From NCBI GenBank assembly GCA_029432815.1, contig JAROBA010000038.1, forward strand, positions 1 to 51,638: DNA of 51,638 bases, given 5' to 3'. Position numbers and translations under genes: made by a program. Below are positions 16,553 through 45,926 of the stretch, piece by piece; the first letter of the stretch is position 1, and each line of letters starts with the position of its first letter. The notes under the pieces are model-generated. The model was not told the DNA's origin. It was given only the letters and a program-made list of their open reading frames with translations, and ran no database searches. The stretch comes from Pontiellaceae bacterium B1224 (GTDB taxonomy: Bacteria; Verrucomicrobiota; Kiritimatiellia; Kiritimatiellales; Pontiellaceae).

Positions 16553-16640
16553 TTAGACATCCTCCACTGTGCGTTGCTGGCCGCCGATACGATCAGAAAA
16601 GCCATCGAAGCGTACGTTGAAAAACCTCCGAAGATTCCGT
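16553..16640 (+). pseudogene. fragment resembling an iron-sulfur scaffold (NifU/IscU-like) C-terminus
   Basis: The stretch reading LHCALLAADTIRKAIEAY resembles the last helix of NifU-like scaffold proteins (the Cys plus LAxxAIxxAIxDY pattern). No upstream part of the gene is recognisable. Tentative. Confidence 0.3.
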
Positions 16641-16715
16641 TTCGACAGAAGCACAAACCCTTCAGTCAGCATGGCAACGACAGGCATCCGCCTGAATCCC
16701 ATGGAGGGATGCATG

Positions 16716-17130
16716 TCTGAAGAAAATAACACCCTCGGCATGCAGATGCTGAACATCGAACTCCAGAAAGTTTCGCTCGGGGCCTTGATTCTTGCACTGG
16801 GCATGCTGGTGGATAATGCCATTGTGGTGCTGATGGAATCCTGATCCGGGTTGAACGGGGCGGAAGCCGCGAGGACGCCGCAACCGAAGTGGTCCATGAG
16901 ACCCAGTGACCCCTGCTGGGGGCCACACTGATCGCAATTCCGGCCTTCACCGCCATTGGATTCGCGCCGGGCAACGTCGACGAATTCTACCGATCGCTTT
17001 ATCATGTCATGGCCTTGTCGCGGTCAATCAGCTGGGGACTTGCAGTTACAGCGACGCCGCTCTTGTGTGTCTGGTTTCTCAAGATTCCTGAAGTCCAAGG
17101 AAAGGACCCTTGCGACAAGCGCAGGTTCCG
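16716..17130 (+). pseudogene. remnant of an RND-family efflux pump gene
   Basis: Two stretches match conserved parts of AcrB/MexB-like pumps. One is LQKVSLGALILALGMLVDNA (transmembrane segment with the conserved Asp region). The other reads ATLIAIPAFTAIGFAPGNV followed by ISWGLAVTATPLLCVWFL. A TGA and frame changes separate them, and more than 700 residues of a normal pump are missing. The rest of 16080-17220 holds nothing else I can identify. Confidence 0.65.
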
Positions 17131-17220: not shown

Positions 17221-18339
17221 TCATGGACCTGCCAAAATGGAGGCATGCGAATGCCTGTATGTTTTGGAATGATCCAGCAATACCCGATCCATCTGTTCCG
17301 CCATGATCTGCATCAGCGGGGTTTCATAGCACTGCCAAACGGACTGGTTTGATGTTCCAATGCTTGGAAGTTTTTCCTGAAGCCAGGGACCGAGCAGTCT
17401 GCCGGATGCGGCATAACAACCGGAGAATACGATCCGATCATAACCATCCATTGCGGCGAGTGCCATTCCGGTGCGCAGCAGGATGCGATATTCCAGCACC
17501 TGCTTAGCCAGCAACAGGTCAGCGTCATCGGAGAGAAGAACCTCCTCAATGGTTACGGGCCGTCCGGCGAGGGCCCGCATGCCGCTCTGCTCGGCCAGCA
17601 GCCGGTTAAGCTGTTCAGGGCCCCATTGTTCTTTACGGGCAAGTGTCAGCAATACCCCGGAATCAATTTCGCCGCACGAGGTCTGCCCCGGCAGTCCTTC
17701 CAGCGGGGTGGCCCCGCCGCTGACCATAACCGGCCGCCCCCCTTTCACGGCGGCAATCTCCGGATGTGGTTCAAGACAGATCGATACGATTCTCGCAGAA
17801 AGGCCCGCCTGCTTTTCCAATGACCGCTCAGCGGCCCGGCCGGCGGCTTCATGAAATAGACCATGATAGCCGAAGCGGCGAATCCCGGAGTCCGTAAACG
17901 CATCGGTATTGATGGCGTACAGATATTCACAGGCGGGCAGTTTGGTGAAAAAGGCTGTTTCAAAAAAGAGGACCACCGGCCGGCCGGGTAAATGCCAGAA
18001 GCAGCTTTCAATCAGTTCCAAAACCAGTGGCAGATGCATCGGGGCGAGCGGCACCTGCGCCTTCAGATTTTCAATCACGGCGGGCGTGGCCACCGCGTGC
18101 GACGGGAAACTGATTCCGCCCGCCACCACGTGCAGCGCCACCGACTCGACCAGCAGACGGGAGGCCGAGACATAGTCCCCGTTCTCGCCCCGCGATAGAA
18201 TCTGATCCAGCGCGCTTCCCATGCTCAGGTCCGTGCGAATCCCTTCCATGCGGCCCTCGAACGCGGGCGTCTCTTTTCCTGCCGGAAAGAAACCATAGGC
18301 CAGGATATTGGGTTCCAGTTTAAGTACCAAGCGGTTCAT
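17221..18339 (-). CDS. acetate kinase paralogue lacking catalytic residues (probable pseudoenzyme)
   Basis: This 372-residue protein is collinear with acetate kinase: RRFGYHGLFHEAA, SGGATPLEGLPG and CGEIDSG align with RKYGFHGTSHQF, GFSPLQGL and CGDIDPA of the neighbouring AckA. The active-site positions are changed. The N-terminal NCGSSSLK is replaced by LKLEPNILA. The Arg of HRVVHGG is lost (LHVVAGG). FDTAYH becomes FETAFF, and the Arg of STRCGDID becomes Ser (QTSCGEID). The frame is intact over the whole length, so it is probably expressed but not an acetate kinase. Its start overlaps the end of ackA by 20 bp behind its own AAGGAG, so the two are co-translated. A regulatory or heterodimer role is plausible (inference). 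A palindrome copy lies at 17355-17369. Confidence 0.82.
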   Translation of the reverse strand: MNRLVLKLEPNILAYGFFPAGKETPAFEGRMEGIRTDLSMGSALDQILSRGENGDYVSASRLLVESVALHVVAGGISFPSHAVATPAVIENLKAQVPLAPMHLPLVLELIESCFWHLPGRPVVLFFETAFFTKLPACEYLYAINTDAFTDSGIRRFGYHGLFHEAAGRAAERSLEKQAGLSARIVSICLEPHPEIAAVKGGRPVMVSGGATPLEGLPGQTSCGEIDSGVLLTLARKEQWGPEQLNRLLAEQSGMRALAGRPVTIEEVLLSDDADLLLAKQVLEYRILLRTGMALAAMDGYDRIVFSGCYAASGRLLGPWLQEKLPSIGTSNQSVWQCYETPLMQIMAEQMDRVLLDHSKTYRHSHASILAGP

Positions 18340-19561
18340 GGGTTAACTCCTTGCTGTTTATCGAGCCGGTTCGCTGACGCGTCAGGGTTTGATAAACCTG
18401 CCGCGCAATGGCCAGCTCTTCATTGGTTTGAACAACTAAAATCTTTATCCGGCTGTCTGCGGCGGCCACATCGGCCGGAAGTCCGCATAAGGCGCGGTTT
18501 TTTTCAGGATCAATGCGCAAGCCGAAACATTCGAATCCCTGACAGACGGCTTCGCGAACCTCGGCCACCTGTTCCCCGATCGTATCGGTGAAGATCACCG
18601 CATCGGCCTGCCCGACAACGGCCAGATAGGCCCCCAGATATTTTCGGATTCGCCAGATGTAGGCAGACGCCGTATTGCGGGTGGATTCATCCTGATCTGC
18701 ATCCTGCAGAATATCCCGGATATCGCCCGACATGCCACTGAGCCCAAGCACTCCGCTCTGCCGGTTCAGCACTTTTTCCACCGAATCCTCTTCTCCCTGC
18801 ATATACACCAGCATGCTCATCGTCAGCGCCGGATCAATATCCCCGCAACGCGTGCTCATGATCAGTCCCTGTAGCGGGGAAAAGCCCATCGTATTATCCA
18901 TGCTGTATCCGTTTTTCACGGCACACAGGCTGGCGCCGCCACTGCCGAGATGGCAGCTGACGGCTGAAAAACCGGTGAGCGGACATCCCGATATACGGGC
19001 CGCTTCTTCCACCACAAACTGATGACTGGTTCCGTGGAACCCATATTTCCGCAGGCCATGCCGCCGGCGGAATTCTGCCGGTATCGCATAGGTGTAGGCA
19101 TAGTCGGGAATCGTTGCATGATACGCGGTATCAAACACGGCCACCTGGGGCAGGTCCGGATAGAGTTCACGGCATTGGTGAATTAATTTCAGCGTGGGCG
19201 GATTATGCAACGGAGCAAGATCGTTCAGCCCTTCGAGCTGCAGAATGGACTGCTGGTCCATCAACGCCGGCTGCGTGAATAAAGATCCGCCGTGCACCAC
19301 CCGGTGGCCCAGCGCATCCGGGGTAAGGCCGTCTTCCTTCAACAGCTTCATCACTTCGTTAAAGGCCGCCGCATGATCCGGCATGTCTGCGTAATGCACC
19401 TGTTGTTTGTTGCCGGCGGTCTGATGATAGACCCGCGCCGGCTCTGCGGTTTGCGGCCCGACCCGCTGCGCCTCCCCCGAAGCCCGTTCGGCTTCGGCAG
19501 GAAACGTGATCAGGCGATATTTCAGCGATGAACTTCCGCAGTTAAAAACGAGCACATTCAT
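18320..19561 (-). CDS. ackA: acetate kinase
   Basis: This 413-residue protein has all the acetate kinase signatures: FNCGSSSLK at the N-terminus, HRVVHGG, FDTAYH, YGFHGTSH, STRCGDIDPA and a C-terminal TNEELAIAR segment. It interconverts acetyl phosphate plus ADP with acetate plus ATP. No phosphotransacetylase gene is in the window; pyruvate:ferredoxin oxidoreductase (29.3 kb) could supply acetyl-CoA. It is the second gene of the sigma-54-type operon, 12 bp after the M20 hydrolase, with AAAGGAG before the ATG. Confidence 0.93.
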   Translation of the reverse strand: MNVLVFNCGSSSLKYRLITFPAEAERASGEAQRVGPQTAEPARVYHQTAGNKQQVHYADMPDHAAAFNEVMKLLKEDGLTPDALGHRVVHGGSLFTQPALMDQQSILQLEGLNDLAPLHNPPTLKLIHQCRELYPDLPQVAVFDTAYHATIPDYAYTYAIPAEFRRRHGLRKYGFHGTSHQFVVEEAARISGCPLTGFSAVSCHLGSGGASLCAVKNGYSMDNTMGFSPLQGLIMSTRCGDIDPALTMSMLVYMQGEEDSVEKVLNRQSGVLGLSGMSGDIRDILQDADQDESTRNTASAYIWRIRKYLGAYLAVVGQADAVIFTDTIGEQVAEVREAVCQGFECFGLRIDPEKNRALCGLPADVAAADSRIKILVVQTNEELAIARQVYQTLTRQRTGSINSKELTHEPLGT

Positions 19562-19573
19562 GAATCTGCTCCT

Positions 19574-20791
19574 TTAAATTTCATCCGTAGTCCAACCGCA
19601 AACGGGCACTCCGATGAGTGCATGAACAATTGCGGCTGTGCCATAAACCGCCTGCCGGATTTTCGAACAGGAAACCTGTTCATCCCGCGAGTGTGCCTGG
19701 GCTTCGTTTCCAGGTCCGTAACCGATGGTCGGAATTCCGAACTCATTCACAAGTACGGCGCCGGCGGTTCCCATGCCGAGCTGGCCCAGTTCCCATTTCC
19801 CCGTGCGAACGTCGCAATCGGCTGCCTCAAGGGCCTGCCGTGCGCGCTCAATCAGACGGTTGAAGGGATCGGTTGACCAGGCATTGGAAACCCGCTGAAC
19901 CGTGACCATGCGGCCACTCTGAAGTTTCTGTTTCTCCTCATGAACCGCCACAGCGGCATGAATGTCGGGCAGCGGCTTAACCGCCAACTGCACATGATGA
20001 TCAATCTCTTCCAGAACCGCAGCAGCCGGTTGACCCTGGCCTACCCGATGCGCCATATGCACTGTCTGATAAGCGCGGCCCGTCCCATTCTGCTGCACCG
20101 GATCCACGTTGCGGATTTCCGTCCAGCCGGGTAGACTGCTTGTTTCCGTATAGTCATCCGTAATCGTCCTGGCGGCATCGCTCAGCGTTTCCGGTTCGGA
20201 ACCGTCGATGCAGATGTCGACTTCCATCCATCCGTCGTGACCGTAGTAAAGGCCCAGATCCGTCGGCTCACCAAGAATGGCATAATTCGGCATGAGACCG
20301 AATTCCGGCAGCGAGTCTTTCAACAAGCCACGCACGCCGAGGCTGGCTCCGTTTTCCTCGGCCACCGTTGCGGCCACAACCAGATTTCCTCTCAGAGGAA
20401 GCAGACTGTTTCGCAATAGCGCCCCGGCATAAACCTGAGCCGCAAGACCGCCTTTGCAGTCGGCCGCGCCCTCGCCGTGCAGTTGACCGTTAATCACCCG
20501 CCCATCATACGGCGAAGTGTTCCATCCTCTCCCCCGGGCAGGGTTCACGGTGTCCATATGACTGTTCAACAGAATGGTCGGAGCGGCATCGAATCCGGTC
20601 ATCACGCCGATCACGTTGCCATAGTCATCGCGATAGACCGAATCATAGCCAATGGTTTTCATTTCCTGCTCAATGCAGTCTGCCACGCCTGACTCTTTCA
20701 GGCTGACACTGGGGGTCTGAACCAAGTGTTGGGCAAAACCAATTTCGCGACGGCTAAGCCCGGTGTTTTTTCCTTTCAGTATGTTGTACAT
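19574..20791 (-). CDS. M20-family metallohydrolase (deacetylase or dipeptidase type)
   Basis: This 405-residue protein has the M20 zinc-site pattern: NSHMDTV, GEGAADCKGG, a catalytic EE in VAEENGAS, and a late metal-site His in AQAHSRDEQ. The N-terminal part resembles the ArgE/DapE/YgeY group. The substrate is unknown; release of acetate from an N-acetylated compound would fit the downstream ackA (inference). It is the first gene of the minus-strand operon, with AAAGGAG in front of the ATG and a sigma-54 promoter 47 bp upstream. Confidence 0.87.
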   Translation of the reverse strand: MYNILKGKNTGLSRREIGFAQHLVQTPSVSLKESGVADCIEQEMKTIGYDSVYRDDYGNVIGVMTGFDAAPTILLNSHMDTVNPARGRGWNTSPYDGRVINGQLHGEGAADCKGGLAAQVYAGALLRNSLLPLRGNLVVAATVAEENGASLGVRGLLKDSLPEFGLMPNYAILGEPTDLGLYYGHDGWMEVDICIDGSEPETLSDAARTITDDYTETSSLPGWTEIRNVDPVQQNGTGRAYQTVHMAHRVGQGQPAAAVLEEIDHHVQLAVKPLPDIHAAVAVHEEKQKLQSGRMVTVQRVSNAWSTDPFNRLIERARQALEAADCDVRTGKWELGQLGMGTAGAVLVNEFGIPTIGYGPGNEAQAHSRDEQVSCSKIRQAVYGTAAIVHALIGVPVCGWTTDEI

Positions 20792-20837: not shown

Positions 20838-20854
20838 ATGCAAAAAGTGCGCCA
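20838..20854 (-). promoter_or_regulatory. sigma-54 (-24/-12) promoter of the M20-ackA operon
   Basis: On the minus strand the sequence is TGGCGCACTTTTTGCAT, against the consensus TGGCACG-N4-TTGCW. The invariant GG and GC are exactly 10 bp apart. A divergently encoded sigma-54 activator and upstream palindromes support it. Confidence 0.78.
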
Positions 20855-20920
20855 TCTGAGCGTTCCTATCTATCTATTTAGCAACAGGTTGTTTATGCAA
20901 TATTCACCTTTCTGCTTCAC

Positions 20921-20955
20921 TGAAATACTATTTCATTGTGAAATGTTGCGTTTCA
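20921..20955. promoter_or_regulatory. tandem palindromic activator sites between the activator and the operon
   Basis: TGAAATACTATTTCA (20921-20935) is a perfect 7-1-7 palindrome. TGAAATGTTGCGTTTCA (20939-20955) repeats its outer arms 18 bp further on. They lie 67-117 bp upstream of the sigma-54 promoter, the usual distance for enhancer sites, and abut the activator start codon, which suggests autoregulation. Confidence 0.7.
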
Positions 20956-20962
20956 TTTTAAT

Positions 20963-22603
20963 ATGCCATTTATGAAAGCCGAAGAACTCAAACTGGACGA
21001 ACTGATTCGTTTTTCCGACGGCCTTATCAGCCTGCAGGGAAGGCGTCTGATTCTGCACGATATCCGGGCGTTTGCCCATTTGCGTAAAGACCTGTTCGAA
21101 GGACTGGGGCCTGTGCCGGCCCGAAAGATACTGACCCGATTCGCCTACTTTCAGGGTCAGGAAGATGCCGCGGCCATGCAGCGCCTCTTTAAGTGGGACA
21201 GCCTGGAAGAATGGCTCCGCGCAGGCTCTGCCATGCAGTCGCTGCAGGGGCTGGCCAAAAGCGTGGTCACCGCCATCGATCTGGATCAGGAGCAAGGCTG
21301 CCTGCACATGGAACTTTCCTGGCACAACTCCTTCGAAGCCGCCGAACAGCTGGTCCTTGCCGGCGAGGGCGATCACGCCGTCTGCTGGACGCTCGCCGGT
21401 TATGCCAGTGGGTATGCCTCGTTCTGCCTCGGGAAAGAGGTGGTCTTCATCGAAAACCAGTGCAAGGCCACGGGCAAGCCCATCTGTACGGCAACCGGAC
21501 GCGATGTCGATTCATGGGGCCATCAGCTGGCCCCGCACAACGGCTATTTCCAGCAAGTGGAAATCGGACAGGAAGTTCATAAACTTTCCGAGGATTTAAA
21601 ACGGAGTGAACAGCTGCTGGCCCGGCAGCGACAACAAATGCAGCTGCTCGAGAAGAAAAACAGTCCGGCCTATTTCGAAGTGCACAGTCCGGCATTTGAA
21701 CAGGTGATTGATCTGGCCACCCGCGTGGCCGCCTATGATTCATCGGTGGTCATCAGCGGCGAGAGCGGCGTGGGAAAAGAGATTATGGCCCGGCACATTC
21801 ACCGCTGCTCCCACCGGGCGAAAAAGGCCTTCGTGGCAGTCAACTGCGCCGCACTTCCGGAAACCCTGCTCGACAGCGAATTGTTCGGCCACACCGCAGG
21901 CTCGTTCACCGGAGCCCTGCACGATCGGACCGGGCTGTTCGAAGAGGCCGATGGCGGAACCATCTTCCTCGATGAGATCGGCGACATCCCGATTGCCCTG
22001 CAGACCAAACTTTTGCGGGTTTTACAGGAGCGGGAAATTATTCGCATCGGAGAAAATCTGCCCCGTAAAGTCGATGTCCGCGTACTGACCTCCACGAACC
22101 GGGATCTGGCCCAATGCGTTCAGGCAGGCACCTTCCGGGAGGATTTGTATTACCGGTTGCGCGTCATTGAAATTGAAATCCCCGCCCTTCGGAATCGTGT
22201 GGAAGATGTACTCCCTCTCGCTCGATATTTTGTGGCCCGGTTTTCCAAAAAGTTTGAAAAACCCGACCTCCATCTCGATGCCAAGTGCCTGAATTTTCTT
22301 CAGGCCTACCGCTGGCCCGGTAACGTTCGCGAGTTGGAAAATGCCATGGAACGCGCGGTGGTGCTGTGTCGAAATGGAGCCATCCAGCCCGAGCATCTGC
22401 CGCCGGGTATTCTCCGTCCTACCGCCGGCACCGCTCCCGACTCCTTTTCCGCGCAGCGCTCGCTGGCCGAAATCGAGCACGAACACATTCAGCGTGTGCT
22501 CGAATGGACCAACGGAAACAAATCAAAAACTGCCAAGATCCTCGGAATCAGTACCGCTACCTTATGGAGGAAACTGAAAAAGCCGGAAGAGCGTTTAATC
22601 TAG
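20963..22603 (+). CDS. sigma-54-dependent activator with XylR_N and V4R sensor domains
   Basis: This 546-residue enhancer-binding protein has an N-terminal XylR_N-like ligand domain followed by a V4R segment (about 1-195, with a Cys in [12 protein letters not shown]) and a short coiled linker. The AAA+ domain carries Walker A GESGVGKE (near 266), the sigma-54 contact loop GSFTGA (near 312) and Walker [10 protein letters not shown] Fis-type HTH ends the protein ([18 protein letters not shown]). XylR/DmpR relatives sense aromatic effectors directly; the ligand here is unknown. It is divergent from the M20-ackA operon and is its probable activator. The GSFTGA loop (Ser for Ala) is a common functional variant. 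Confidence 0.9.
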
Positions 22604-42095: not shown

Positions 42096-42539
42096 TTAGT
42101 TGGTTTTACAGTTGAGGCAAACACCGCGAACCTGCAAATGCAGAGACTCTGTGCTGCCGAGATTTTCAAGCCCCTTCGGGAGGGGAATTTCCTGGTCTAA
42201 ATAGAGGTCGGTAATGCTCCCGCAACGGGAACAGATAAAATGGTGGTGTACGTCGCAGTTGGCATCATAGCGGGAACCGCCGGCAATCGGATCCACCCGA
42301 CTGATGAGTCCCATTTCTTCGAGCGAGGCGAGGGTGCGGTAGACCGTATCGGGCGATACGGTCGACAGGCGTTCGCGCACGCGCTGAAAGATGGTATCCG
42401 CATTCGGGTGTTCCGATGTTGAAGCCACTTCCTTGAAAATTTCCATCCGCTGGTGCGTCATCCGCATGCCGGATTTGCGGCACGCTTCAGAAAGCTGTTC
42501 CAGCCGCTGTTCAATTTCTTTTGGAGGCACGGAGTTCAT
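42096..42539 (-). CDS. Fur-family repressor, PerR-like
   Basis: This 147-residue protein has an N-terminal winged helix (MRMTHQRMEIFKEVAS, TVSPDTVYRTLASLEEMG), the HHHFICSRCG metal site and a second C-terminal CxxC (CLNC), as in PerR/Fur proteins with a structural zinc. Placement next to rubrerythrin favours peroxide sensing (inference). The start codon overlaps the stop of the upstream flavoenzyme gene. Confidence 0.9.
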   Translation of the reverse strand: MNSVPPKEIEQRLEQLSEACRKSGMRMTHQRMEIFKEVASTSEHPNADTIFQRVRERLSTVSPDTVYRTLASLEEMGLISRVDPIAGGSRYDANCDVHHHFICSRCGSITDLYLDQEIPLPKGLENLGSTESLHLQVRGVCLNCKTN

Positions 42540-43948
42540 TATGCATGCTCAATCGTGGTATGTGCCGAAATTTCGGAGTTGGTGGTAAACAGGTTGTTCA
42601 CACCAAGTTCATGAACATCGTCATGCCCCGTGATGCGCGCGAAAGATTTGAGCTCTTCGTTGCACACCGTGAAATAGTTGGCCAGTCGCTGCGCCGATTG
42701 GTCGACATCCAGCCGGGCCCGCAACTCGGGATCCTGCGAGGTGATGCCCACCGGGCATTTTCCACTGTCGCACATGCGATATTGCTGGCACCCGATCGCC
42801 ATCATCGATGCACTGGCAATCGCCACCGCATCGGCACCCATCGCCAGCGCTTTGGCCATGTCGGATGAAACCCGGAAACCGCCGGTGATGATCAGGCTGA
42901 CGTCCGCGTTCTTTTCATCGAGATATTTTCGGGCTCGCGACAGGGTATAAATCGTCGGCACCGAGGTGGAGGCCTTGATGTATTTCGGAGCCGAGCCGGT
43001 TGCTCCGGCGCGTCCGTCAATCGTGATAAAGTCGGGCTCTGCGGCCAGTGAAAATTCCAGGTCGGCTTCAATATTTCCAGCGGCAAACTTAATGCCGATC
43101 GGGCGACCGCCCGATTTCTCGCGCAGCCAATCCACCTTCGCCTTCAGATCTTCCACCGTTTTTATGTCGGGGAAGGTGGAGGGGCTGATGATGTCCTGGC
43201 CCTTTTCCCGTCCGCGGACGGCAGCAATTTCATCGGTCACTTTATTGCCCGGCAGATGGCCGCCCATGCCGGGTTTGGCCGACTGGCCGATCTTGATTTC
43301 GATGGCGTCCGCCTGCTGCAGATTTTCATCCGTCACGCTGTATTGATTCGGGACGTATTCAAAAATATATTTATGCGCCAGTGCAAGGCTCTCCGGGAGA
43401 ATGCCGCCTTCGCCCGAGCACATGCCCGCTCCCACCATGCCGCTGCCCTTGGCCAGCGCCATCTTGGCTTCTTTCGACAGCGCGCCGTACGACATATGTG
43501 AAACCATCAGCGGCGTTTCCAGCACCATCGGTTTCTTTGCCTTCTTTCCAATGATGGTTTGGGTGGAAACCTCGGCATCGTACGCCAGCGGCATCGGGTT
43601 CAGCTGCGCACCTTTAATCAGAATATCGTTCCAGGAAACCACCGGCAGTTTCGTGCGCATCGGTTCGTGAATCGAATGGCCAGTTTTCGCCATGTCATGA
43701 ATATCCTGCATACAGCCTTCCGTATCGTCGGAAGGGCGTTCCCAGGTTTTCAAATATTCGCCTTTCGGCTCCGGTTTCGGATCGTCATGCGGAATCAGCT
43801 GCGTTGAATGGCCAACCGCATCATCATCGTTCCCGCCCGTTCCTTCGAAAAGCGCCTTGCCTGCTCCGCAGACCGGGCAGGCCCAATCGTCGGACAGTTC
43901 GCCATCCTGTTCGTGTTCAAATCCGCAAACCGTACATACATATTTCAT
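42539..43948 (-). CDS. rubredoxin-glutamate synthase-like FMN protein fusion
   Basis: This 469-residue protein begins with a rubredoxin domain ([29 protein letters not shown]). A glutamate synthase-type FMN barrel follows ([42 protein letters not shown]) with a cluster motif [15 protein letters not shown], like the 3Fe-4S site of GltB. No amidotransferase domain is present. The fusion suggests that the FMN/Fe-S centre exchanges electrons with the attached rubredoxin. It is translationally coupled to the PerR-like gene. Confidence 0.9.
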
Positions 43949-44054: not shown

Positions 44055-45926
44055 CTAAATAAGTTCCGGATCGCACATAATTTCCACCAGGGCCGGACCG
44101 TTGTGGGCTAGCGCTGTGTTAACGGCATTCGCCAGATCTTCGATCTTCTCCACTCGAATTCCTTTCGCGCCGCACACCTCGGCATACGCTGCAAAGGAAG
44201 GATTGTGCAGTCCGGTTTCCCAAACCGTCATGTCGGCCATTTTCTGTTCCGTGCTGATCTTCCCCAGCTCGTTATTGTTAATCAGAATATGGGTGATGTT
44301 CATATTGTACTTCACCGCCGTGCAAAGCTCGGCCATGTATTGCCCGAACCCGCCGTCGCCCGTCAGCGCAATGATCGGGCGGTCCGGTTCCGCGGCCCAC
44401 GCGCCCATGGCGGCGGGATAGCCGAAGCCGATCGAACCGAGATAGCCCGACATCAAAACCGGTTGTCCTTTGCTCTCAAAATAGCGCCCGAACGAATAGG
44501 TGTTGTTGCCGACGTCCACCGCAATCACTGCATCTTCCGGAAGCAGCTCGCTCAGCTGGGCGAAGATGCCTGCGGCGTTCAATCCCTTGCCATTATCTTT
44601 TGCAGCGCGGGTTTCCTTCTCCGTTTTCCATTCGGCCTTTTTCGCGGCGATCTCGTCGCGACGATCGATGCCGGCCGGATTTTCCAATCCCTGGAAAAAG
44701 AGATCGGCCGTGATGCCGATTTCTCCAACCACTGGAACATCGACCGCATGGAACTTGCCGAGGGTAATCGGATCAAGGTCGACCTGAATGGTCGGGATGT
44801 CCTTGTTAATGCCGGTGTGCTGCGAGAATGAGGCACCGAAAACGACCAGCAGATCGGCGCTGTTCATAAAGTGAGCCGAAACCAGCGTGCCGCTGCGTCC
44901 GAGTACGCCGCAACCGAGCGGGTCGTCATCGCGAATCAGACCTTTTCCTTTAAAGGTGGTAATGACCGGGCAGTTCAGTTTTTCAGCCAGCTTTTTGACC
45001 GCATCCATTTTAAAGCGCGCGCCGTGGCCGACGATGATCGCTGGGCGCTCAGCTTTATTCAAATGTTCCAATGCCTGGGAAAGCGATGCTGCCGGCGGAG
45101 AAGTTCCAAGGTCTGGAAGTCGCCCTTCCGGACTTCCAAGGGTTGGAAGCGGGGCGGGCATCGTCTGTACTTCGTTCGGGAAAATCAGGTGGCCGACATC
45201 GCGCTGGAGCAGGGCATTTTTCAGCGCCAGATTCATCAGTTCTGCATGGTGGCTGGTTTCCAGCACGGTTTGGCTCCAGCAGGCGACCGATGAAAAGGCG
45301 GCCGCGAGATCCACTTCCTGAAACGCGCCCGGACCGAGCACCTGCGTATCGATCTGGCCGGTCAGCGCCAGAATCGGCACGCGATCCATCCGCGCATCCC
45401 AGAGTCCGGTCAGCAGATTGGTGGCACCGGGGCCGGCGATGGAGAGGCACGCCGCCGGTTTGCCGGTCAGCTTGCCGAAAGCCGAGGCCGCGAACGACGC
45501 CGCGCCTTCGTGGCGAATGCCGATATATTTCAGCTTGCCCGCTTCACACTGTTTGCGGATCGCATCGGCCAGCCCGAGGTTGGAATGGCCCACCATGCCG
45601 AACACCGTCGTCACGCCCCAGTTGATCATGGTTTGAACCATGACGTCAGAGACGGTTAATTCTTCAGCAACGGTTTCGGCAGGCGTTTCCGCCGCGCCAT
45701 CTTCAGCGAATTCGGAAGCGGGGACGCCGCAGACCGGGCAGGTTTCGGGCGGTTCATCGCCTTCGTGCACATAACCACAAACCTTACATTTCCAACGTTT
45801 GGAAACGGCCGTCTCTTCGGTGGCTTCTTTTTCAAACACCGAAGCGGGGGCGCTGCAAACCGGACAGGTTTCCGGCGGTTCATCGCCTTCGTGTATGTAT
45901 CCGCAAACTGTGCACTTCCAAGCCAT
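44055..45926 (-). CDS. ThDP-dependent enzyme with two N-terminal rubredoxin-like domains
   Basis: This 623-residue protein starts with two near-identical Cys4 domains (CTVCGYIHEGDEPPETCPVC and CKVCGYVHEGDEPPETCPVC; residues about 4-33 and 45-75). A pyruvate oxidase/acetolactate synthase-type enzyme follows: IRHEGAASFAASAFGKLTG with the catalytic Glu, SIAGPGATNLLTG, a central domain and the ThDP-Mg motif GDGGFGQY ... NNNELG. Acceptable reactions are pyruvate oxidation or decarboxylation; specificity cannot be read. Palindromes interrupt residues about 260-287 (45066-45148) and the rubredoxin linker (45790). It is the first gene of the operon, 106 bp before the flavoenzyme gene. Confidence 0.88.
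   Translation of the reverse strand: MAWKCTVCGYIHEGDEPPETCPVCSAPASVFEKEATEETAVSKRWKCKVCGYVHEGDEPPETCPVCGVPASEFAEDGAAETPAETVAEELTVSDVMVQTMINWGVTTVFGMVGHSNLGLADAIRKQCEAGKLKYIGIRHEGAASFAASAFGKLTGKPAACLSIAGPGATNLLTGLWDARMDRVPILALTGQIDTQVLGPGAFQEVDLAAAFSSVACWSQTVLETSHHAELMNLALKNALLQRDVGHLIFPNEVQTMPAPLPTLGSPEGRLPDLGTSPPAASLSQALEHLNKAERPAIIVGHGARFKMDAVKKLAEKLNCPVITTFKGKGLIRDDDPLGCGVLGRSGTLVSAHFMNSADLLVVFGASFSQHTGINKDIPTIQVDLDPITLGKFHAVDVPVVGEIGITADLFFQGLENPAGIDRRDEIAAKKAEWKTEKETRAAKDNGKGLNAAGIFAQLSELLPEDAVIAVDVGNNTYSFGRYFESKGQPVLMSGYLGSIGFGYPAAMGAWAAEPDRPIIALTGDGGFGQYMAELCTAVKYNMNITHILINNNELGKISTEQKMADMTVWETGLHNPSFAAYAEVCGAKGIRVEKIEDLANAVNTALAHNGPALVEIMCDPELI
44682..44737. repeat. palindrome pair inside the ThDP-enzyme gene
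   Basis: An exact copy TTCCAATCCCTGGAA is at 44682-44696 and a one-mismatch copy (CTCCAACCACTGGAA) at 44723-44737. Confidence 0.7.
45066..45148. repeat. cluster of three palindromes inside the ThDP-enzyme gene
   Basis: A one-mismatch copy (45066-45080) and two exact copies (TTCCAAGGTCTGGAA at 45104, TTCCAAGGGTTGGAA at 45134) lie within 83 bp. On the coding strand they encode the Pro/Gly-rich linker PTLGSPEGRLPDLGTSPP between two domains. Confidence 0.78.
45790..45804. repeat. palindrome at the start of the second rubredoxin domain
   Basis: TTCCAACGTTTGGAA encodes the SKRWK segment joining the first rubredoxin-like domain to the second. Confidence 0.72.

Follow-up and report, generated by a model that had tools for sequence, protein, structure and literature searches.

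Why would an anaerobic bacterium keep, directly behind an acetate kinase gene and overlapping it, a second acetate kinase-like gene that has lost the residues of catalysis? This question is raised by a stretch of 51,638 nucleotides (here called the window), which comes from the 5.4-Mb genome of a relative of Pontiella in the Kiritimatiellota. On its minus strand, the 3' end of an acetate kinase gene (AckA) lies inside the start of the second gene (pseudo-AckA) with a 20-nt overlap. Both frames are open and both products matched PF00871 above the cut-off in a profile search (396 bits for AckA, 141 bits for pseudo-AckA), confirming the initial annotation of an intact second AckA-like frame that overlaps ackA; against TIGR00016, pseudo-AckA stayed below the cut-off (131 versus 293 bits). 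The gene order is M20 hydrolase, AckA and pseudo-AckA, with a sigma54 activator gene divergent from them (Table 1), and the metal-site motifs of the M20 hydrolase appear intact. A third, housekeeping acetate kinase adjoins pta elsewhere in the same genome (G000:C142); the AckA at 18320-19561 is not the housekeeping enzyme. Between yebC and the pair, window positions 16569-16841 also carry a short stretch left over from an RND efflux pump (PF00873, E 7.6e-6, ~32 residues), probably an eroded gene.

Table 1. Features of the acetate kinase locus and of the type B pairs; positions refer to the window unless another locus is named.
Feature	Position	Strand	Description
Pseudo-AckA	17221..18339	-	degenerate acetate kinase paralog, 372 aa; PF00871 141 bits
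AckA partner, Entamoeba PPi-ACK type	18320..19561	-	413 aa; TIGR00016 384 bits
M20-family metallo-hydrolase	19574..20791	-	operon gene 1; PF01546 85 bits; nearest NCBIfam model YgeY-like
Sigma54 -24/-12 promoter-like site	20839..20854	-	TGGCGCACTTTTTGCA; 63 nt ahead of M20 start
Palindromic upstream activator-like sequence	20918..20945	.	ATTTCACAATGAAATA + second half
Divergent sigma54 activator	20963..22603	+	XylR_N + V4R + AAA + Fis-type HTH, 546 aa
Type B pairs	L041 2202-5268; L080 8857-11952		

Orthologues were sought in relatives of the window genome and in a sample of 388 genomes of the phylum. Pseudo-AckA of the window's kind (type A) was found at the equivalent place in 13 genomes, which belong to four families (12 beyond the window genome), with identities of 35-73% where the protein is complete. 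The copy in G172 is cut near a contig end; similarity of its frame (L078 52-780) ends after about residue 200, which may reflect truncation, an assembly error or a real break. Across the 13 genomes, the four-gene locus of M20 hydrolase, AckA, pseudo-AckA and activator is constant where the contig reaches: the hydrolase sits at the same place in every orthologous locus with a contig long enough, the activator adjoins the operon wherever it can be seen, and the outer flanks vary. The complete type A pseudo-AckAs formed one clade (support 100/99) and so did their partner AckAs (support 100/100). Pairwise GY94 fits gave an omega of 0.075-0.25 for pseudo-AckA in seven pairs, each of which rejected omega = 1 (likelihood ratio statistic 70-172), and an omega of 0.04-0.20 for the partner AckA. 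The suggestion that the degenerate form is a conserved clade next to ackA and is held by purifying selection was thus borne out. Furthermore, 13 of the 388 genomes encode an AckA that scores at least 598 bits against the partner profile, the next AckA in any genome reaching 450 bits; all 13 adjoin a degenerate copy, and no type A pseudo-AckA without its partner was found in the 388-genome sample. Taken together, these results display two properties of a pseudoenzyme partner, namely obligate pairing in both directions (13/13 in 388 genomes) and purifying selection on the inactive copy.

A comparison of residues showed catalytic loss in pseudo-AckA. In the window protein PHOSPHATE1 is gone, the Arg of HRVVHGG is His, the Asp of FDTAYH is Glu and the Arg of STRCGDID is Ser. 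All four losses had been named in the initial annotation, but those of Arg91 and Asp148 are not constant across the 13 orthologues: at position 91 the six Pontiellaceae have His and the remaining seven orthologues have Arg, and at position 148 ten have Glu and three have Asp. Because they vary, we do not count these two among the defining losses. PHOSPHATE1 residues N7, S10, S12 and K14 are absent in 13/13 type A pseudo-AckAs, as are H208 and the PHOSPHATE2 loop, which is now CLExxPE-like. In the 12 proteins that reach that far, Ser or Thr invariably takes the place of R241, and none retains the GIGEN adenosine motif or E384/E385. H123 and H180 are retained in 12 and 11 of the 13, respectively. 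Pseudo-AckA therefore does not carry the set of residues required of an active kinase (N7, S10, S12, K14, R91, D148, H180, N211, R241, GIGEN and E384).

The second gene had also been described as a full-length copy. This is nearly right: pseudo-AckA lacks ~40 aa relative to AckA, the gaps falling near residues 41-60 and 341-375 of AckA, yet its predicted fold is complete. An AlphaFold2 model built from a 46-row alignment reached a pLDDT of 91 and a pTM of 0.90; it matched the acetate kinase 2iir over its whole length (Z 40, 2.1 Å over 352 residues) and butyrate kinases with a Z of about 28. The model thus predicts a complete AckA fold. Within the pseudo-AckA family, conservation is strongest in domain II, the part that builds the AckA dimer, which speaks for a dimer with AckA; against it, the AckA interface pocket residues D227, M230, K312 and Y313 are mostly altered.

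Two of the 13 carriers of a partner-type AckA, G043 and G400, belong to another family and have a second kind of pair (type B), in which AckA is followed by a differently degenerate AckA and then by a divergent FolE2-like GTP cyclohydrolase (PF02649, 79-87 bits). The best tree joined the type A and type B pseudo-AckAs (support 100/98) and also the two kinds of partner (93/88), which favours a single ancient pair. AU tests for separate origins gave P-values of 0.13 and 0.18, leaving separate origins unrejected, and long branches are involved; on these trees a common origin of both types is favoured but not proven. Since the type A pseudo-AckA clade spans several families, a recent duplication within Pontiella is ruled out. 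A third tandem AckA pair was seen in G200 (L079 7418-8668 and 8701-9927). Its first copy has lost PHOSPHATE1 (NSGVSFVEFE) and carries Lys in place of N211 but is canonical in other respects, and it clusters with the copy beside it; this first copy is a younger, partly degenerate duplicate.

A serine-recombinase-like frame lies ~1.5 kb from the pair in G008 (L039 5162-6739). Together with the differing outer flanks, it hints that the AckA/pseudo-AckA cassette moves between genomes. In a plasmid collection, 381 records matched the partner AckA, all of them below 60% identity.

To our knowledge, PPi-dependent acetate kinase activity has been established only in Entamoeba, and it is the Entamoeba enzyme (EhACK) that the partner recalls at its nucleotide pocket. 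The initial annotation missed that the upstream gene, with its EhACK-type signature, is not an ordinary acetate kinase; it also missed the housekeeping pta-ackA elsewhere and the sigma54 operon with the M20 hydrolase. An extra Gly in PHOSPHATE2 (HLG[S/T]GG), G239S, A330D and G331T/D were found in 15/15 partners and in 0/47 canonical AckAs of the phylum; N211 is Ser or Thr in all 15 partners and varies in three of the 47. These changes give the motifs HLGSGG, MSTRCGD and FTDTIGE, and the signature is also present in the cultured species Pontiella sulfatireligans. Among solved structures, EhACK (4h0o) comes nearest to the partner in the segment from PHOSPHATE2 to ADENOSINE; over its full length the partner is nearer the ATP-dependent MtACK than EhACK. 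The type A partner retains the catalytic residues N7, S10, S12, K14, R91, H123, D148, H180, R241 and E384.

Part of this signature has been used before. In their 2017 report, Dang and Ingram-Smith list putative bacterial PPi-type acetate kinases, from Anaerolineaceae (WP_075061087, WP_075074878, WP_062279690 and WP_062422928) and digester metagenomes, by the extra Gly and the Asp, and leave the use of PPi by these bacterial enzymes undecided (PMC5517563). The type is described there by a PHOSPHATE2 loop with a second Gly and an Asp in ADENOSINE, and all 15 partners carry both features. EhACK and the Anaerolineaceae enzymes share with our partners the extra PHOSPHATE2 Gly, Thr or Ser for N211, Ser for G239, the ADENOSINE Asp and a residue other than Gly at 331. 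EhACK differs at positions 331-332, where it has Gln-Met, which occludes its adenosine pocket, whereas the partners have Thr-Ile/Val (type A) or Asp-Ile (type B). Because the partner shares positions that distinguish EhACK (PMC5517563, PMC4390882), it resembles the PPi type of acetate kinases and, judged from these residues, may belong to it. Sugar fermentation by Pontiella strains has been reported to yield acetate, ethanol and H2 (PMC7356697), and a membrane pyrophosphatase (H+-PPase) was found in 31 of 32 genomes, whether or not they carry the pair. With such a fermentation and a nearly universal membrane PPase, any PPi formed from acetyl phosphate could find a use. As the PPase is present irrespective of the pair, the PPi economy fails to single out carriers and is ruled out as the cause of the distribution of the pair.

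The locus has the elements of a sigma54 operon, that is, a -24/-12 promoter, a palindrome upstream of it and a divergent V4R/XylR_N activator. Of 11 orthologous intergenic regions, ten have a sigma54 box between -53 and -63 (equalled in 0.05-0.7% of shuffles), and the eleventh, from G161, has an equivalent box (4% of shuffles). ATTTCA/TGAAAT palindromes lie further upstream of the box in the orthologous regions. In the whole window genome, the palindrome occurs at this locus, and a single further near match falls within a coding frame unrelated to it, so that we rejected a second target for the activator. No other protein of the window genome has a XylR_N domain. From the conserved -24/-12 box, the palindrome and the sole XylR_N activator, the operon looks like a dedicated, inducible one.

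What, then, could the two proteins do together? AckA is a stable dimer that buries ~3,000 Å2 per subunit through domain II (PMC3475010). We modelled AckA and pseudo-AckA as one fused chain (AlphaFold), and obtained a pTM of 0.78 and a mean pLDDT of 72, with low confidence at the expected-interface segments 225-279 and 615-649 and without a homodimer control. The modelled pTM appears to exceed the expectation for independently placed halves, lending weak support to a heterodimer. In this fusion (P0001, lacking the first five pseudo-AckA residues) the change of frame served as a modelling device only, as did the reading through of a stop in two rows of its alignment; neither frameshifting nor read-through is claimed.

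We consider it fairly probable that the products of the two genes are the catalytic and non-catalytic subunits of one inducible, heterodimeric acetate kinase, probably of the non-ATP (PPi) type. The catalytic subunit would be a second, inducible acetate kinase with an EhACK-like nucleotide pocket. Given the EhACK-type changes in that pocket, it would most likely interconvert acetyl phosphate + Pi and acetate + PPi, or use another small phosphoryl donor, rather than ATP. Pseudo-AckA would retain the AckA fold including its dimerisation domain, would have lost nucleotide binding, and would most likely take the place of one protomer of the AckA homodimer and tune or complete the other, perhaps via a ligand, anionic or acyl, bound in the cleft with H123, D/E148 and H180. 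The resulting enzyme would have one active site and one signal site. The divergent V4R/XylR_N activator and a small-molecule inducer would switch on the sigma54 promoter, and the M20 hydrolase, expressed along with the pair, may release the acid or the inducer. The sequence analyses show the catalytic loss, the conservation and selection, the strict pairing, the signature residues and the anatomy of operon and promoter, with the fold as a prediction, and we regard the pseudoenzyme reading as well supported. The heterodimer, already suggested in the initial annotation, PPi as donor, regulation by a ligand and the link to the hydrolase are the parts of this model that we infer.

Other explanations of the pair differ in what they make of the same residues. 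That pseudo-AckA is a recent duplicate heading for decay fits the loss of catalytic residues as seen in the window protein alone; we give this practically no credence, as omega is well below 1 in seven pairs and orthologues down to 35% identity keep intact frames at the same locus, so that the selection test and the conservation rule out a decaying duplicate. A heterodimer whose AckA uses ATP as ordinary acetate kinases do, its pocket having drifted, is a more serious alternative, if still rather unlikely. All catalytic residues are kept in the type A partner, and its highest full-length similarity is to the ATP-dependent MtACK. Against this, five linked changes fall at EhACK-specific positions in 15/15 partners, and single changes at G331, N211 and G239 are known to lower MtACK activity 6- to 200-fold (PMC4390882).

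Pseudo-AckA might instead act by itself, as a separate homodimeric sensor that binds a ligand (acetate, acetyl phosphate or the inducer) and is merely co-transcribed with AckA, comparable to the ROK kinases that turned into regulators. Of the AckA-like cleft, H123, D/E148 and H180 survive in most orthologues, the ASKHA fold is common to ROK repressors, and a ligand-responsive activator adjoins the pair. Pseudo-AckA, however, has no DNA-binding domain, and its strict pairing with one type of AckA and the gene overlap favour a subunit; we hold such a sensor to be unlikely. Still less credible to us is an enzyme with a changed activity, whose new active site would be formed by the rebuilt S-x-C-L-E-x-x-P-E and T-S/T-C-G-E/D-I-D loops. 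The replaced motifs are strongly conserved across the 13 genomes, but nothing points to a substrate, and neither the phosphate-binding N-terminus nor the two C-terminal acidic residues remain.

A literature search found no description of an acetate kinase pseudoenzyme pair, in agreement with the initial annotation, and the known systems nearest to a heterodimeric acetate kinase differ from it in several ways. Canonical AckA (MtACK 1tuy, StAckA 3slc) has the same fold, the catalytic residues of our partner and belongs to a dimer-forming family, but is a homodimer from one gene, whereas pseudo-AckA has no nucleotide site. The parts of PMC5517563 consulted make no mention of a degenerate paralog for its PPi-type enzymes; the partners described here are encoded beside one. 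Lactococcus lactis also has adjacent ackA genes, but AckA1 and AckA2 are both active homodimers with separate promoters, and thus isozymes rather than subunits (PMC3956926). TsaD-TsaB of the t6A machinery likewise combines an ASKHA enzyme with a paralog that has no catalytic site; the two co-occur in bacteria and form a heterodimer (PMC9654439), which for AckA and pseudo-AckA is our interpretation, and they belong to another ASKHA family and act in tRNA modification.

The PPi-type signature is hereby extended to another bacterial phylum, where an inactive, conserved paralog accompanies it every time. Should the pair form a single enzyme, it would offer a clue to the control of this branch of acetate kinases and would be the second ASKHA enzyme with a dead paralogous subunit after TsaD-TsaB; genome annotation would then be miscounting such genes as two acetate kinases. 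A broader proposal, which we advance only tentatively, is a two-subunit, non-nucleotide (PPi-type) bacterial acetate kinase with a dead AckA as obligate partner, the pairing being ancient across the PPi-type branch and not confined to one genus.

Elsewhere in the window, we observed a gene for a thiamine-diphosphate enzyme that carries two rubredoxin-like domains at its N-terminus (44055-45926). It adjoins a gene for a glutamate-synthase-domain protein that has a rubredoxin-like domain at its start (42539-43948).
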